From a virus: DNA of 37,542 nucleotides. The notes below the pieces were generated by a model, which saw only the letters and a program-made list of their open reading frames with translations, did no database searches and was not told the DNA's origin. Location: positions 1-37,542 of the IMG/VR virus record IMGVR_UViG_3300038425_000073; one strand, written 5' to 3'. Positions 8,798 to 34,056 of the stretch are shown piece by piece; the stretch's first letter is position 1, and every line of letters starts with the position of its first letter. Position numbers and translations under genes: made by a program.

Positions 8798-9858
8798 TAG
8801 TAGACACCCCTTTGTTTCTGGGCTTGCAGTAGGGTCTTAGCCAAAGCCGCTTCCACTTCCATCCTCACTCTAGCCAAGTCCACGTTGCTTGTAGCATGGA
8901 TGTGAATCTCAACATTTGGTATAGATGAGCCACCACCTGCAAACATTGATGTGGCTGGAACACCATTAACCTTACCCTCTGGGGAAACCACAGTCTCGCC
9001 AGCATGAAGGACGTAGGGGCCAGTCTTAGGAACAAAGCCACCATGTTGCATAGCAAGAAAACCGAAGTCCAACAGTGTTGGAGCGGCGTATTCTAAATCG
9101 GTAAGGATACCCATAGCCCCACCTGCACCTGCTGTTGCCGCACCTGCGGCTTCTGTGACTGCAAGTTCGGCTTGAGCCGCAGTATCGGCTTCTGCTGTAG
9201 TAGTGGCCGCAATTTGAGCCGCAGTTTGCGCTTCTTTTGTCGTAGTATCCGCAATCACAGCCGTAGTCTCCTCTTCTAGTTGCGCTTGGGCCATACTATG
9301 GGCGGCTCTCCACATAGCAAAAGTAACCAAGAACTGGCTTACACTACTTGCCGCATCTACAATAGACGATGCAATCTTCGCTAGATTAGTGCCTGTCGCT
9401 GTCACATATGCGTTTGCGGCAACCACTTCATTCTTCTTGCTCTGTTCATAGAGAGCACCAACGTAATTTGCGGCTATAGTCGCCCTTGTTGCTTGCTCAG
9501 ACTGTTTGCCATAGATACCAACGGCGGCAGACTGTAAGGCGATTGCTTGCGTGTAGATATTCTGAGTGCGAATCATGGTGATTTGCGCGTTATACAGGTT
9601 CACCAACTCATCAATGTTATGTGCCGCTAAATCAGCCGCCGCATTGAAAGCATTATTCCAATTCGTCATGACAGAAGTAAGCATCTTTGTTGCCACTACA
9701 CCTGCTTGCTCACCTGCCGTCAGCCCATACTGCGCTTCTGCTACTTCCTTTATCGCGCCTGTGTATTCTCTTGCAGAAATAGCACCCTCTTCATAGGCCA
9801 CATTCAATTCTTTCAGGTCTGAGGCCATTGCTTTAATGGCTTCTGCTCTCTCACTCAT
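8797..9858 (-). CDS. Tape measure protein (short)
   Basis: The product is 353 aa. It is Ala-rich and largely alpha-helical, with coiled-coil-like stretches (residues 1-230) and a low-complexity Ala/Thr/Glu segment (~190-240). The C-terminus has the typical tape-measure ending: a hydrophobic patch, GGFVPKTGPYVLHAGE, a Gly-Gly-Gly turn, then IHIHAT strands and a final helix. It lies immediately after the frameshifted chaperone pair. Tail length is set by this protein; at the usual ~0.15 nm per residue it would imply a tail of roughly 50 nm, short for a siphovirus. A TATA box 26-35 bases upstream gives it its own transcript. Confidence 0.88.
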   Translation of the reverse strand: MSERAEAIKAMASDLKELNVAYEEGAISAREYTGAIKEVAEAQYGLTAGEQAGVVATKMLTSVMTNWNNAFNAAADLAAHNIDELVNLYNAQITMIRTQNIYTQAIALQSAAVGIYGKQSEQATRATIAANYVGALYEQSKKNEVVAANAYVTATGTNLAKIASSIVDAASSVSQFLVTFAMWRAAHSMAQAQLEEETTAVIADTTTKEAQTAAQIAATTTAEADTAAQAELAVTEAAGAATAGAGGAMGILTDLEYAAPTLLDFGFLAMQHGGFVPKTGPYVLHAGETVVSPEGKVNGVPATSMFAGGGSSIPNVEIHIHATSNVDLARVRMEVEAALAKTLLQAQKQRGVY

Positions 9859-18238: not shown

Positions 18239-19078
18239 TTAGAGCGCACCTTCTTCTTTGGAAGATAGATAGGGATGTGCTTCTCTTCCAGTCTTATTGA
18301 GAGAAGACATTTCATTCCAAAATTCCTTTTTCAACTCGCTCTTTCTAGGAAGCCCTAAGAATTGAAGGGCAAGTTCGGCTTGTTTTCGTTTAATCTTAAG
18401 ATAGGGTAAAATCATTCCCAAAAAATTGGTCATCTCATCTTTAGACATGAGATACCATCTTTTACTATCGTTCCAAGTTGGATGTTTCTTTATAGACCGT
18501 CTATGTTCATAGACTGTGCCACCAAATTTAGACTGTAACCAATTAACAACCTCTGATTTTACCATGTCTACTTGGATTTGTAATTGGTATCTGTCTCGCA
18601 CATGACCCTTTCCTAATGTTTCTTTCTTTGCATGATATATCTTGATACATCCTTCTCCATCTATAATGCCAGCCGCATAAGCCAAATCAGATTCGGAAAT
18701 TGTAGAAGTAGACGCTGTGAAGTTAGGTATATCCATCAATTCCTTTGGCAAAAGACCATGTTCTATCATTTCTTCAGTATGAATTGCACTTGCAAGATTC
18801 CATGCTCCCGCAGATAAATGGTCTTCATCCTTCAATCCTTCTCGATATTCATTAATGTGTCTCAATGCACTATCCAAAAAACGACCTATTGGAATGCCTT
18901 TCGACCAATTCCAATCTCCATACTTGACAGCCCCGTTCTCATAGTGTCTGGCCAGCCTACGAAGGAAGATAGGGCTTATGAGGTCGAACCGTCCCTTTCC
19001 TTGTTGGATGTCCCGCACCGCACCTGTCTTGAACTTCTGTCGCGTTCCACTGTCCTTGACCTTCTTGTAGTCTATCAT
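18239..19078 (-). CDS. MazG-like (d)NTP diphosphohydrolase domain fused to a LAGLIDADG endonuclease domain
   Basis: The product is 279 aa. Residues ~15-110 match the phage dATP/dGTP diphosphohydrolase N-terminal family: GKGRFDLISP, the ENGAVKYGDWNWSKG block, RHINEY and DEDHLSAGAWNLAS. The C-terminal part carries LAYAAGIIDGEG (132-143), a LAGLIDADG motif with D140 and E142, and a single-domain homing-endonuclease-like body. There is one continuous frame with no splice-junction cysteine, so it is a fusion rather than an intein. DNA from about 18290 to 18900 is visibly richer in A/T than the flanks, including part of the hydrolase domain. It overlaps the upstream gene by four bases (ATGA). Confidence 0.85.
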   Translation of the reverse strand: MIDYKKVKDSGTRQKFKTGAVRDIQQGKGRFDLISPIFLRRLARHYENGAVKYGDWNWSKGIPIGRFLDSALRHINEYREGLKDEDHLSAGAWNLASAIHTEEMIEHGLLPKELMDIPNFTASTSTISESDLAYAAGIIDGEGCIKIYHAKKETLGKGHVRDRYQLQIQVDMVKSEVVNWLQSKFGGTVYEHRRSIKKHPTWNDSKRWYLMSKDEMTNFLGMILPYLKIKRKQAELALQFLGLPRKSELKKEFWNEMSSLNKTGREAHPYLSSKEEGAL

Positions 19079-28643: not shown

Positions 28644-28903
28644 TCTTTCTCATCCCAATGAAGGATTACATCGGCTCTGTAAGCCTCTGCACATTCAGCC
28701 GCCCCATCTTGTTTGTAGAGCAAAGTATACTGGTCTCGCTTGATGTCATACTCTATAGCAACAAACTTGGCATCTTCTGGAATTTGGCTTTCTACTCTAA
28801 ACTTCTTGTTGCTTCCTTGAAGGAGTTTACCTAGAGCCTCTCTAGAGGCCAGAATGTAGAACTTTGCAGGAAATGGAACGTCTAGTGGTTCTAGTTCTTT
28901 CAT
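28640..28903 (-). CDS. 87-aa hypothetical protein
   Basis: The protein is a small alpha/beta fold: strand KFYILAS, helix EALGKLLQG, strands FVAIEYDI and YTLLYKQ, helix CAEAYRADVIL. It has ATGA overlaps on both sides, with uS2 upstream and the 60-aa gene downstream. No family recognised. Confidence 0.7.
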   Translation of the reverse strand: MKELEPLDVPFPAKFYILASREALGKLLQGSNKKFRVESQIPEDAKFVAIEYDIKRDQYTLLYKQDGAAECAEAYRADVILHWDEKE

Positions 28904-29622
28904 TCTTCCTTTCCACCCTCTTCCCCTTTCTCCTCTTTCTCTGGCATCTTTGTCTCAAAGTCCTCTACTCCAAGAGGTTCTGTCGTTTCATACTTGAAGA
29001 TGTCGTCTGCTCCCATCGCTTCTAACCATCCGCTATGAATAAGGATAGACCGAGCCAGAAGATAGTAGACGGTGGCGATGGCCTTGGCTCCTACGTTGTT
29101 AGCAGGGATAGCGATGTCAACATCCTCAAAGGTGGCGTTGGTGTTGCAAACGGCTATGACAGGGATGCCTATGCTAGAGGCTTCAAACATGGCCCGTCTG
29201 TCTCCCATCATGGCTTGGCCTATCTTTTTTGGGACTCCATTGGTGGGGTCTGAGACCACCAGACAGTCAACGTCCATATAACTCGCTATCTTCGTATTGG
29301 TGAGACTCCCTGCTATGAGACGGTGGGTGACTATTGGAATGCGAGTCGCATCGTGAAACGACTTGAGAGCATTGGCGAATCTGGGGTCGGTAGCATAGAA
29401 AAGAGGCTTCGTGGCAGAGTCTTTCCCTGTCCAACTTATGTGCTTGCCCACCACATCCAATCTTTCCAGAATCTTGTTGACATCCATAATGGGGTTGCCA
29501 GTTGGTGCAATCTCAGTGATGTATGGGGTCATGTCCTTACTCACATGGCCTTTGATTCCGATGTGGATGCCAGTGGCCTTGAGAGCGTCCTCTGTAAGTG
29601 TCTTAGGAAGAATAAGACTCAT
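28900..29622 (-). CDS. rps2: Virus-encoded ribosomal protein uS2 (archaeal type)
   Basis: The 240-aa product begins at ATG 29622; an upstream in-frame start at 29679 is excluded by the 33-codon gene. The sequence follows archaeal uS2 from end to end: TGIHIGIKGHVSKDMTPYI, a lDv..iLERL helix, YATDPRFANALKSF, HRLIAGSLTNTKIASYMD, CLVVSDPTNG, GIPVIAVCNTNATFEDVDIAIPANN, AIATVYYLLARSIL and VEDFETKM, with an acidic tail. In the archaeal 30S subunit uS2 binds near the mRNA exit and the Shine-Dalgarno helix. Some usually conserved residues differ (SDPTNG for TDPRAD), so it could compete with or modify host ribosomes. It is in an ATGA-coupled operon. Confidence 0.9.
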   Translation of the reverse strand: MSLILPKTLTEDALKATGIHIGIKGHVSKDMTPYITEIAPTGNPIMDVNKILERLDVVGKHISWTGKDSATKPLFYATDPRFANALKSFHDATRIPIVTHRLIAGSLTNTKIASYMDVDCLVVSDPTNGVPKKIGQAMMGDRRAMFEASSIGIPVIAVCNTNATFEDVDIAIPANNVGAKAIATVYYLLARSILIHSGWLEAMGADDIFKYETTEPLGVEDFETKMPEKEEKGEEGGKEE

Positions 29623-29720
29623 GGTAGTAGACCAAACACCTTTAGTGCGATTAAGGCAGAAATGCACACACCTGTCCATGTTCCCAATGTGCGAAGTTGC
29701 TCCAATGTCAATAGTCTCAT
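29619..29720 (-). CDS. 33-aa membrane microprotein bridging DHH and uS2 genes
   Basis: The gene runs from ATG 29720 to TGA 29619-29621. The start overlaps the DHH gene's stop (ATGA) and its own stop overlaps the uS2 start (ATGA), so it fits the gap exactly. The protein has a polar N-terminus (MRLLTLEQLRTL) and one hydrophobic helix (GVCISALIALKVFGLLP). A single-span peptide might anchor or regulate; otherwise it may serve to relay ribosomes to uS2. Too short for similarity evidence. Confidence 0.65.
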   Translation of the reverse strand: MRLLTLEQLRTLGTWTGVCISALIALKVFGLLP

Positions 29721-30931
29721 TGGAGACTCGCCTCTACCGCCCTTATGAGTTCGTCCAACACCGCCTCTGGGTTGTTGGTGTGCGTCTTGGCAGACCCCGC
29801 TTGCTTCAGACCGCCACCTTCCATGATGGTTGGATTGGCCATTCTGAAGACCTTGCCTATATGAAGTTGGCTGTCTGAGACCCCGTTTCGTCCAGAGACA
29901 TGGACTCCATATTTGGGGATGGTGTTGATGACGAACCAAGGCTTCTTGTTCTGGCCACCCAACTTGTTGGCCATCGCAGAGCCAATGTTCCATTCGTGAC
30001 TGATGATGGAGACCCCGTAAGTTTTCCAAGACTCGATGCCTCTATCATAGTAGGGGAACTCCAACTTCACGTTGTTCTTCCAGTCCTCAGTGACCTTCTT
30101 GAACTCTGGCTTATACTTGATGTGGTTCAAGGCCATCATCTGAGTATTAGGGTTCTTGCCACCCTCAAACAAAGAAGACGTTAAGGCTCCTTTAGTTATC
30201 ATAGTGTAGAGGTCTAGCCAGTTGGGTATCTGCTCCATCTCCTTCATACCCTCATAACAGAAGGGTGGTGCGGCATTGAAGACCATCCTGCGCTGGACAT
30301 GGAGCAACTGAGCATAGAAGTCTATGAGACCCCAATTATAGCCCAGATTCGCCTCTGTCGCTAGAAGTCCTTTGAGGCCACCATGTCTCATCAGAATCTC
30401 GTTGTAAATGGGGCCACCCTCTTGGCTGTCGCTTGCTACATCGCCTCTGAGTCCTAGCAAGGCCCACTTCTCCATGTTGGCGATTGGCCACTGGCTCTGT
30501 TGAGCCATCTTGTAGACGATGCCAGTCGTGCAGTTCTCGTTTGAGGACTCGTAGTAGAACGAAGGAAAGTCCCTTAATCCCTGAAGAAGAGAGGAGTATT
30601 TCGCCATGTCCTCTTTAGTTTCGACTTCCTTATCGGGTGGATGATTGTCCAAAACCACGACTCTCATACCCGTCTTCAGAAGGTCGGATGCCTTTTGAAG
30701 TATGTCCAAACCGCTTCCCAAGTCTAGGATGAATGCGGTCTCTGGATGGAATGACTTGATGACATCAACATCCCCTTGTGAGATGCCAAACGTATCCCAA
30801 TCTTGCCATCTGATGATGTGCTTCGAGTTAGGCTGCGTAAGGGTTAATGCGTTGTGGACTATCCTAGTAGCGCACATCCCATCCGTGTCTTCATCGGTCA
30901 TAATGACCGTATCTTTGTTGTCGGTTGTCAC
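29717..30931 (-). CDS. DHH-family phosphoesterase (RecJ/GAN-like)
   Basis: The 404-aa protein starts with GTG. DHH-family metal motifs are seen in order: I MTDEDTDG (D13, D15, D17), II FILDLGSG (D70), III VVLDNHPP (D95, N96, H97, replacing the DHH triad) and IV GLRGDVASD (D164). The C-terminal part ends with GGGLKQAGSAKTHTN, resembling the substrate-binding DHHA1 motif. Family members are 5'-3' exonucleases or oligonucleotidases; archaeal relatives work with the replisome. It is coupled to the 72-aa gene by GTGA and to the microprotein by ATGA. Confidence 0.85.
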   Translation of the reverse strand: MTTDNKDTVIMTDEDTDGMCATRIVHNALTLTQPNSKHIIRWQDWDTFGISQGDVDVIKSFHPETAFILDLGSGLDILQKASDLLKTGMRVVVLDNHPPDKEVETKEDMAKYSSLLQGLRDFPSFYYESSNENCTTGIVYKMAQQSQWPIANMEKWALLGLRGDVASDSQEGGPIYNEILMRHGGLKGLLATEANLGYNWGLIDFYAQLLHVQRRMVFNAAPPFCYEGMKEMEQIPNWLDLYTMITKGALTSSLFEGGKNPNTQMMALNHIKYKPEFKKVTEDWKNNVKLEFPYYDRGIESWKTYGVSIISHEWNIGSAMANKLGGQNKKPWFVINTIPKYGVHVSGRNGVSDSQLHIGKVFRMANPTIMEGGGLKQAGSAKTHTNNPEAVLDELIRAVEASLQ

Positions 30932-31361: not shown

Positions 31362-32024
31362 CTAAAGAGACTTCCTGTTTCCTTTCATGAAGGTCTCTAG
31401 TTTCTTGTGGACTTCCTCAAGAACGACAACATCCTGTTTGTTGTGCTGAACGATGTAACTCATCGAATGAGGGTTGACCATTGCGGTCTTCCAGATGGTC
31501 GGTTCTAGGGGTGACTTCTCTTCCACATGGAGTAAAGACGCTACAGAGGCTAGTCTGTTGGAGTGCAACTGTAGTTTGCTCTTGACCAGATAGTAGAGGT
31601 CAACGTGCTGAATCTCTCCATAGGCAGGGAACTCAAGACCCCAATCCAAGGCTCTCGTCCTAATCATAGGCATATCGAAGCCAGTTCCGTAGTAAGTATA
31701 GAGAACATCAAACTTTCTCATGGTGTCTATACAAGCCTGAGTCGTTCTCTTGTCGAAAGTCTCAGCAAGTGGTTCGTCTGGAACCTGCATACAGTCCCAG
31801 AGAATTTCTTTAGGAGAACTATCTCGCGGCTTGATTGCCCATGAATACATGATGTTGAAGTCTCCCTGTAGACCGTTGGCTTCAATATCTAGATAGCCTA
31901 GTCTCAGGTCTTTGCTCATGTATTCCTCTTGGAACCTTCGCCAGCAGTTCGGATGTCCTTCGCCAGTGTGCGCGTGTTCGCACTTCCACAGCGCGGGACT
32001 AATCAGTGGTTTCTTACCTTTCAT
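31362..32024 (-). CDS. RNase H-like 3'-5' exonuclease (DEDD type)
   Basis: The product is 220 aa. DEDD motifs appear as LGYLDIEANG (D46, E48), YGTGFDMPMI (D117), HVDLYYL (D142) and HNKQDVVVL (D198), the pattern of YprB/DnaQ-like nucleases. The N-terminus has C15, H17, H19, H24 and C27 (KCEHAHTGEGHPNCW), a possible extra metal site that is uncommon in such exonucleases. It could proofread for the viral polymerase or degrade DNA. Leaderless behind a TATA box, it is co-transcribed with the 56-aa gene. Confidence 0.83.
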   Translation of the reverse strand: MKGKKPLISPALWKCEHAHTGEGHPNCWRRFQEEYMSKDLRLGYLDIEANGLQGDFNIMYSWAIKPRDSSPKEILWDCMQVPDEPLAETFDKRTTQACIDTMRKFDVLYTYYGTGFDMPMIRTRALDWGLEFPAYGEIQHVDLYYLVKSKLQLHSNRLASVASLLHVEEKSPLEPTIWKTAMVNPHSMSYIVQHNKQDVVVLEEVHKKLETFMKGNRKSL

Positions 32025-32791: not shown

Positions 32792-32801
32792 TTTATAAGG
32801 A
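32792..32801 (-). promoter_or_regulatory. TATA box for the nucleotidyltransferase-like gene
   Basis: The minus strand reads TCCTTATAAA, 23-32 bases before ATG 32769, right after the 3' end of the predicted structured RNA. Confidence 0.78.
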
Positions 32802-32805
32802 TTCT

Positions 32806-32938
32806 GGGATTGTCAGGGTTCGCACACTCCCTGTTACGCCCTTTTGGGAAGCGTCAACCCATTATCAACTGAGTCTCCTACGGCCCTTTAAGACCGTAAT
32901 GCGGTGCGGGGTCTCGCTAACTAAGCCCCTGCAATCCC
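32806..32938 (-). ncRNA. Structured non-coding RNA of unknown class (~133 nt)
   Basis: No reading frame fits this intergenic stretch. On the minus strand it begins GGGATTG and ends CAATCCC, a perfect 7-bp closing helix. Inside are further stems: GGGG/CCCC near the 5' end, ACGG/CCGT around CTTAAAGG, ACG-CCC/GGG-CGT closed by AAAA, and CAGGG/CCCTG next to the 3' end. A TATA box lies 23-32 bases before the first G, so the predicted transcript start coincides with the helix start. It is not a standard tRNA: the T-loop and anticodon arm do not fit. It was not recognised as 5S, RNase P or SRP RNA. A guide or regulatory RNA is possible. Confidence 0.65.
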
Positions 32939-32960
32939 GACATCCCTTAGTATAATAGCC

Positions 32961-32970
32961 TATTTAAAGG
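32961..32970 (-). promoter_or_regulatory. TATA box for the structured RNA
   Basis: The minus strand reads CCTTTAAATA, 23-32 bases before base 32938, the first base of the RNA's closing helix. No start codon with an open frame follows at that distance. Confidence 0.72.
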
Positions 32971-32985
32971 TTCTAGATTACTATA

Positions 32986-34056
32986 TTACACGAAGGTTAT
33001 GTCGAGAGCCGTGAGAACGTCTGAGATGTGGTTCCCAATGGTTGTGTTGCCACCGCCAGCGAACAGTAGGGCAACGGCCATCTGGTCACTTTGTCTCATG
33101 ATTAGGGAGCCAGAGTCTCCGCCAGCACTGAATGGAGTAGTCGTGTCCTGAGTGATGACCTGTTCCACGAAGGTTGCCTCATTGGAACCGCTATAGCTGA
33201 CAGTGATGGTTCCAGCGATGTCTATCACCTGCCCAGAAGTGACTCCTGTAGTGCGCCCTGTCTTGGTCACAATGTCTCCATCTATGGCCGCACTTATCCC
33301 TGCCGGAGAGAACAGCCCGTTCTCTTCTGGTTTGAAGTTGGTCTGGTCATTGAGAGTGGCCCAAGCACAGTCTACCAGATTGCTTGCGAGTTGGTGAACT
33401 ATGGGATGTAGTCGTGTCTTTCTCTTGAGTTCCTTGGCCAGCCCGTTGTAAACACCAGAGATGAATGTCGCATTGGGGCAATTGCTTGGCTGTGCGTTGT
33501 CATACTGGATGGGAATGAAGTTGGTGAGTTTGGCCACTTGACTGGTCAGTAGAGTGCCGCCGTCATATGCTCCCGGCTGAAGGATGGGGTCTCCTATACT
33601 CGCGTTGTTCTCATTGGCCAAAACGTGGTTGTTACTCAGGATGCCGATGTGACCTGATGCGTCCTTCACGAAGTAGTCTATCGTGCCAGCCGTAATCTCG
33701 TAGTGACCTACGCTGATTCCACCTATGAGTGGCCGGAACGCCTTCGTTGGGTCTTGAAAGGGTGGAGCCGACCTTATCTTCTGGTGGCCAATCTCCACGA
33801 TGTCAACGGGCGTGGTCATCTTAAACTTTCCGTCGCCCATGTCTATCATCCATTCTATCTCGTCTGGGATGGTCTGAAATATGGCCAGTTGAGAAGTGGG
33901 AATCTTCTTTTCGACATAGACCCTTATCGCCTTGCGACCCGTCTTTTTGCCGCCAGCGATTTCGTCCTTCAGGTCTTCGCTATACCCATTGACATTCGGG
34001 TAGGTAGCGCGAATCTCTTTCAGTTTCTCTATCAGTTTCGGATGAAGATTACCCAT
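32986..34056 (-). CDS. Trypsin-like serine protease
   Basis: The product is 356 aa. The chymotrypsin-fold catalytic triad can be read: H144 (LSNNHVLANEN), D229 (NLVDCAWATL) and S315 (SAGGDSGSLIM). Before it, residues ~40-90 (RKAIRVYVEKKIP ... PVDIVEIG) form a prodomain-like region, and GGISVGHYEITAGTI leads into the protease. This matches a prokaryotic S1-type family with a GDSG serine motif and no signal peptide. In a virus it could mature capsid proteins, act on the host or be carried in the virion; prohead proteases are usually of other folds. Leaderless behind a TATA box. Confidence 0.85.
   Translation of the reverse strand: MGNLHPKLIEKLKEIRATYPNVNGYSEDLKDEIAGGKKTGRKAIRVYVEKKIPTSQLAIFQTIPDEIEWMIDMGDGKFKMTTPVDIVEIGHQKIRSAPPFQDPTKAFRPLIGGISVGHYEITAGTIDYFVKDASGHIGILSNNHVLANENNASIGDPILQPGAYDGGTLLTSQVAKLTNFIPIQYDNAQPSNCPNATFISGVYNGLAKELKRKTRLHPIVHQLASNLVDCAWATLNDQTNFKPEENGLFSPAGISAAIDGDIVTKTGRTTGVTSGQVIDIAGTITVSYSGSNEATFVEQVITQDTTTPFSAGGDSGSLIMRQSDQMAVALLFAGGGNTTIGNHISDVLTALDITFV

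Follow-up and report, generated by a model that had tools for sequence, protein, structure and literature searches.

What is encoded by the 133 nt that lie between two genes of an uncultured virus? A preliminary description took this intergenic stretch for a novel viral RNA with its own promoter. The locus may hold a gene of its own, a part of the neighboring gene, a known kind of RNA, or a DNA element. The window analyzed here is a stretch of 37,542 nucleotides (IMG/VR record IMGVR_UViG_3300038425_000073, positions 1 to 37,542). The RNA locus and both of its flanking genes are on the minus strand, and RNA position p corresponds to window position 32939 − p. A homologue is present in a sister lineage (L003 and L004). 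The features of the locus, in the direction of transcription, are the following:

32986..34056, minus strand: upstream gene for a protease-like protein (PHROG 20754 'protease', E 4.9e-52), which ends before the RNA promoter
32961..32968, minus strand: TATA box of the RNA, TTTAAATA, 30 nt ahead of the first RNA base (29 in L003)
32806..32938, minus strand: putative structured RNA of 133 nt, with a predicted 5' end at 32938 and a 3' end that the closing helix would place at 32806; it is recognized by its fold (z −2.92), its homologue in L003/L004, and the lack of an Rfam or tRNA match
32792..32799, minus strand: second TATA box, CTTATAAA, 30 nt ahead of the ATG of the downstream gene and kept in L003
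32128..32769, minus strand: downstream gene for an uncharacterized 213-aa protein, apparently leaderless

Promoter and genomic setting

The TATA consensus has 17 matches in the window, 13 of which are followed by an ATG or GTG 30–33 nt downstream. A wider count over four records places most start codons 29–31 nt from their TATA box. This near-uniform spacing of about 30 nt looks like a sign of leaderless genes throughout this virus group, as judged from the sequences; leaderless genes are found in many archaea. The TTTAAATA box is one of the four matches that lack a start codon. Two of the other three are antisense inside genes, and one lies between opposing genes. The base 30 nt past TTTAAATA is G32938, i.e., the first base of the closing helix, and among the 17 consensus promoters only that of the RNA has a stem longer than 5 bp (the 7-bp stem) at its predicted start site. 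The sister lineage has a spacing of 29 nt despite a diverged promoter sequence. Because the base of the RNA helix thus lies at the distance typical of start codons in the leaderless genes, transcription should start at 32938. The start at the first helix base proposed in the preliminary description, from a box now placed at 32968–32961, therefore agrees with the start-codon habit of the virus, by sequence only.

In L005, the closest of the three related viruses that lack the RNA, a near-identical promoter precedes the same 213-aa gene, with a spacing of 30 nt to its ATG. Since that promoter drives the 213-aa gene directly in L005, the RNA and the second TATA box lie precisely between promoter and gene. 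The 213-aa gene itself is kept in L003, L005, L006, and L036. Searches of its product against Pfam, PHROG, and the PDB gave nothing of note, and its predicted structure (pLDDT 45) is too low in confidence to use.

The virus is assigned to archaeal viruses because of its promoters and an archaeal-type uS2. This ribosomal protein homologue (28900–29679, minus strand) has a Pfam E-value of 1.9e-16, and its best PDB matches are archaeal uS2 proteins; its TIGR01012 match (E 5.8e-35) is nevertheless under the curated cut-off. It is conserved at 61–79% in three further viral contigs of 91–106 kb. For archaeal viruses, bL19 and L21e are the only ribosomal proteins named in a 2024 paper (PMC10848311). 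A DHH/RecJ-like phosphoesterase gene (29717–30931, minus strand) adjoins the uS2 gene; it is 51–76% conserved in the same viruses and has no match in the phage collection. The window also contains a family B polymerase fragment (1–1226) and, as a distinct gene, an RNase H-like exonuclease (31362–32024). These recall the split polymerase/exonuclease arrangement that PMC10848311 reports for the Bathyarchaeia Kunpengvirus, a likeness that does not by itself establish the host. At 18239–19078 (minus strand), a single frame encodes a LAGLIDADG endonuclease domain behind a dATP/dGTP diphosphohydrolase N-terminal domain, and this fusion is possibly a homing element insertion. Finally, at 9390–9568 the sister virus L007 has a consensus promoter without an ORF, in the place of an additional 152-aa gene of the window; the sequence that follows this promoter does not fold above chance (z −0.70).

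Fold and conservation of the RNA

The minus strand from 32938 to 32806 has a minimum free energy of −50.5 kcal/mol, whereas shuffled sequences average −39.8 kcal/mol (z −2.92), and none of 200 shuffles was as stable. The plus strand of the same stretch has an ordinary fold (z −1.13). The 126-nt homologue folds on par with the window copy (z −2.98). The modeled helices are as follows:

32932..32938, minus strand: P1, 5' strand GGGATTG; pair probability 0.92–1.0 in both homologues
32806..32812, minus strand: P1, 3' strand CAATCCC; perfect 7-bp pairing with GGGATTG
32927..32931, minus strand: P2, 5' strand CAGGG; extends P1, with one bulged A (32813); pair probability 0.74–0.99 in both homologues
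32814..32818, minus strand: P2, 3' strand CCCTG; pairs with CAGGG at 32927..32931
32916..32926, minus strand: short hairpin GCT-TAGTT-AGC (RNA 13–23); pair probability 0.66–0.68 in both homologues
32879..32898, minus strand: P4 hairpin; pair probability 0.83–1.0
32824..32854, minus strand: P6 arm ACGCTTCC / GGGAGYGT, tentative; pair probability 0.3–0.4 in the window copy and 0.3–0.99 in L003

P1 and P2 together form an outer helix of 12 bp with one bulge, which joins both ends of the RNA; for P2, a second possible CAGGG partner is located at RNA positions 106–110. The perfect 7-bp closing helix noted at first is indeed present on the minus strand as described. Either single sequence can fairly be given at least four internal stems, but beyond the outer helix only the hairpin at RNA 13–23 and P4 are well supported in both homologues, these three being the only elements with a pair probability above 0.6 in both. 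The hairpin sits within a 37-nt 5' block that is identical between the homologues. P4 is longer in the window virus and shorter in L003, with indels in or beside it. The inner junction differs between the two minimum-energy folds: CGCAC/GTGCG in the window copy, and CCCC/GGGG together with a long P6 in the L003 copy. No single inner fold was best in both homologues when a cloverleaf and a P3-type junction were compared; the modeled inner fold is uncertain and is not claimed here.

The sister-lineage homologue occupies the same genomic place, and 118 of its 126 aligned bases are identical. L002 has an identical copy of the window RNA, and the conservation tests compare two distinct RNA sequences. 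The RNA has 8 substitutions in 126 positions; the two downstream genes have 42 in their 152 four-fold sites (p = 3e-6), with an identity at such sites of 68–77%. This shows that the RNA evolves more slowly than synonymous sites. Similarity to the sister lineage is high from the 5' end of the RNA through the downstream genes; the upstream protease gene has a DNA identity of only about 60%. Of 15 changed columns, 13 are outside the 54 paired columns of the modeled helices (p = 0.02). Two substitutions are within modeled stems, and both preserve the pair: U46-G55 becomes C-G in P4, and G87-U113 becomes G-C in P6. The search for compensatory changes suggested in the preliminary description thus gave two compatible changes, each one-sided, and no double-sided change between the two homologues compared. 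Only one-sided changes are seen because just two distinct sequences were found.

No reading frame is conserved between the homologues, in accordance with the initial view that no protein frame explains the stretch. A protein-coding reading is broken by indels of 2, 4, and 1 nt, and the only open frame of the window copy, on the plus strand, is interrupted by a stop codon in the homologue. Likewise, Rfam 15 returned no match at the gathering score, and the best match of a lax search (16.8 bits, cut-off 35, E 0.91) is noise. Since no family fits, the RNA is placed as a new family within a known kind, the virus-encoded structured RNA.

The distribution of this RNA is narrow. Three related viruses (L005, L006, and L036; contigs of 91–106 kb) have no RNA beside the same downstream gene. 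A covariance model applied to the records of related viruses, which may be incomplete, and to further terminase-bearing contigs found only the known copies. Exact and gapped RNA patterns in the viral contig collection recovered the known contigs; the others that they matched are unrelated and unsupported by the model, and no meaningful similarity was found to DNA in the phage and plasmid collections. In genome_contigs, a 19-base core has exact matches only in two bacterial contigs, about the chance level, neither of which is convincing by the RNA model. Because the RNA is absent at the locus in three relatives and undetected elsewhere in their records, it is not essential to the wider virus group.

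Interpretation of the locus

The locus is probably a gene by which an archaeal tailed virus encodes a stand-alone non-coding RNA; this RNA would be processed at its 3' end and act in trans via a protein partner. The sequence, the fold above chance, the promoter position, and the conservation were computed here; transcription, an independent 3' end, action in trans, and a protein partner are what we infer. The host TATA-dependent RNA polymerase would initiate transcription at G32938, where the closing helix begins, and the RNA would fold compactly, with the once-bulged P1/P2 helix holding its ends together around the short hairpin, the length-variable P4, and probably the P6 arm. Processing is proposed for the 3' end because no terminator follows the RNA. 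The action of the RNA most likely depends on binding by a protein of the host or the virus, and not on antisense pairing; candidate antisense targets in the window's own genome are at chance level only. The reading as a novel viral RNA with its own promoter is accordingly still the best one, backed by the conserved homologue and the strict TATA-to-start spacing, although the pair changes are only one-sided and no terminator supports the 3' end of a separate transcript.

A structured 5' leader of the 213-aa gene, either riboswitch-like or an attenuator, is a possible but less favored explanation, by which one long mRNA would be controlled in cis. Like archaeal riboswitch-like 5' leaders, the element is located upstream of a same-strand gene, whose ATG is 36 nt past the RNA 3' end, and no T-run terminator was found between them, so the transcript may run on into this gene. 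In both lineages, the RNA and the downstream gene have also remained together, in contrast to the diverged upstream side. However, unlike in such leaders, a separate TATA box, conserved in the two lineages, precedes the gene at exactly 30 nt from the ATG, and the orthologues in L005, L006, and L036 do without the element. Moreover, the terminal helix closes the RNA on itself ahead of the second promoter.

An origin by capture from the host, in which a cellular non-coding RNA would have kept its function in the virus, is rather unlikely; this explanation overlaps with the stand-alone viral RNA gene and differs from it on origin. The patchy presence of the RNA among related viruses and its insertion between a promoter and its gene would suit such a capture, but no Rfam family matches it, and the near-chance bacterial hits of the 19-base core provide no convincing cellular relative.

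A DNA element is improbable, whether a miniature inverted-repeat insertion or a site of recombination or protein binding that is bounded by 7-bp terminal inverted repeats. The ends are inverted repeats and the junction is empty in L005, yet the related viral records contain no further copies and the ends show no target-site duplication. The strand asymmetry of the fold (z −2.9 on the minus strand, −1.1 on the plus strand) and the change of G-U to G-C are also more in keeping with RNA pairing.

A tRNA, an intron-bearing pre-tRNA, or a tRNA-like RNA is very improbable, as initially judged: a 7-bp acceptor-like helix, a 2-nt linker, and drawable 4-bp D-like and 5-bp T-like stems recall the 7/4/5 pattern of a cloverleaf, and in the window copy this fold is 3.8 kcal/mol less stable than the minimum, but it is 8–9 kcal/mol worse than the minimum in L003, no T-loop lies beside the acceptor strand, the lax Rfam search gave no tRNA family, and ARAGORN detected no tRNA gene in the stretch and none in 2485 in-silico variants with single-intron deletions.

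Significance and comparison with known systems

A limited literature search turned up no archaeal tailed virus with a gene for a structured non-coding RNA. It is conceivable, albeit unlikely, that the RNA represents a new class of trans-acting RNAs of these viruses, forming an RNA–protein complex that manipulates the host, e.g., its translation. Translation is taken as the example because these viruses also carry the archaeal-type uS2 homologue, and a link of the RNA to it is speculation. With a sharply predicted start, a conserved homologue, and no known family, the RNA is a definite target for expression and pull-down work once the host is found. In addition, the spacing rule (TATA box 30 nt from the start) provides a simple finder of more RNA genes in such viruses, as promoters without a start codon.

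Among known systems, the packaging RNA of phi29 is a small structured RNA encoded by a virus and closed by pairing of its two ends. The terminase of the present virus resembles GpA-type large terminases, for which no requirement for a packaging RNA is known. The phi29 packaging RNA and the RNA described here have no sequence or Rfam relation. Nevertheless, this RNA is similar to small structured RNAs encoded by viruses in general in having its own promoter (predicted here) and paired ends, and in being compact and encoding no protein.
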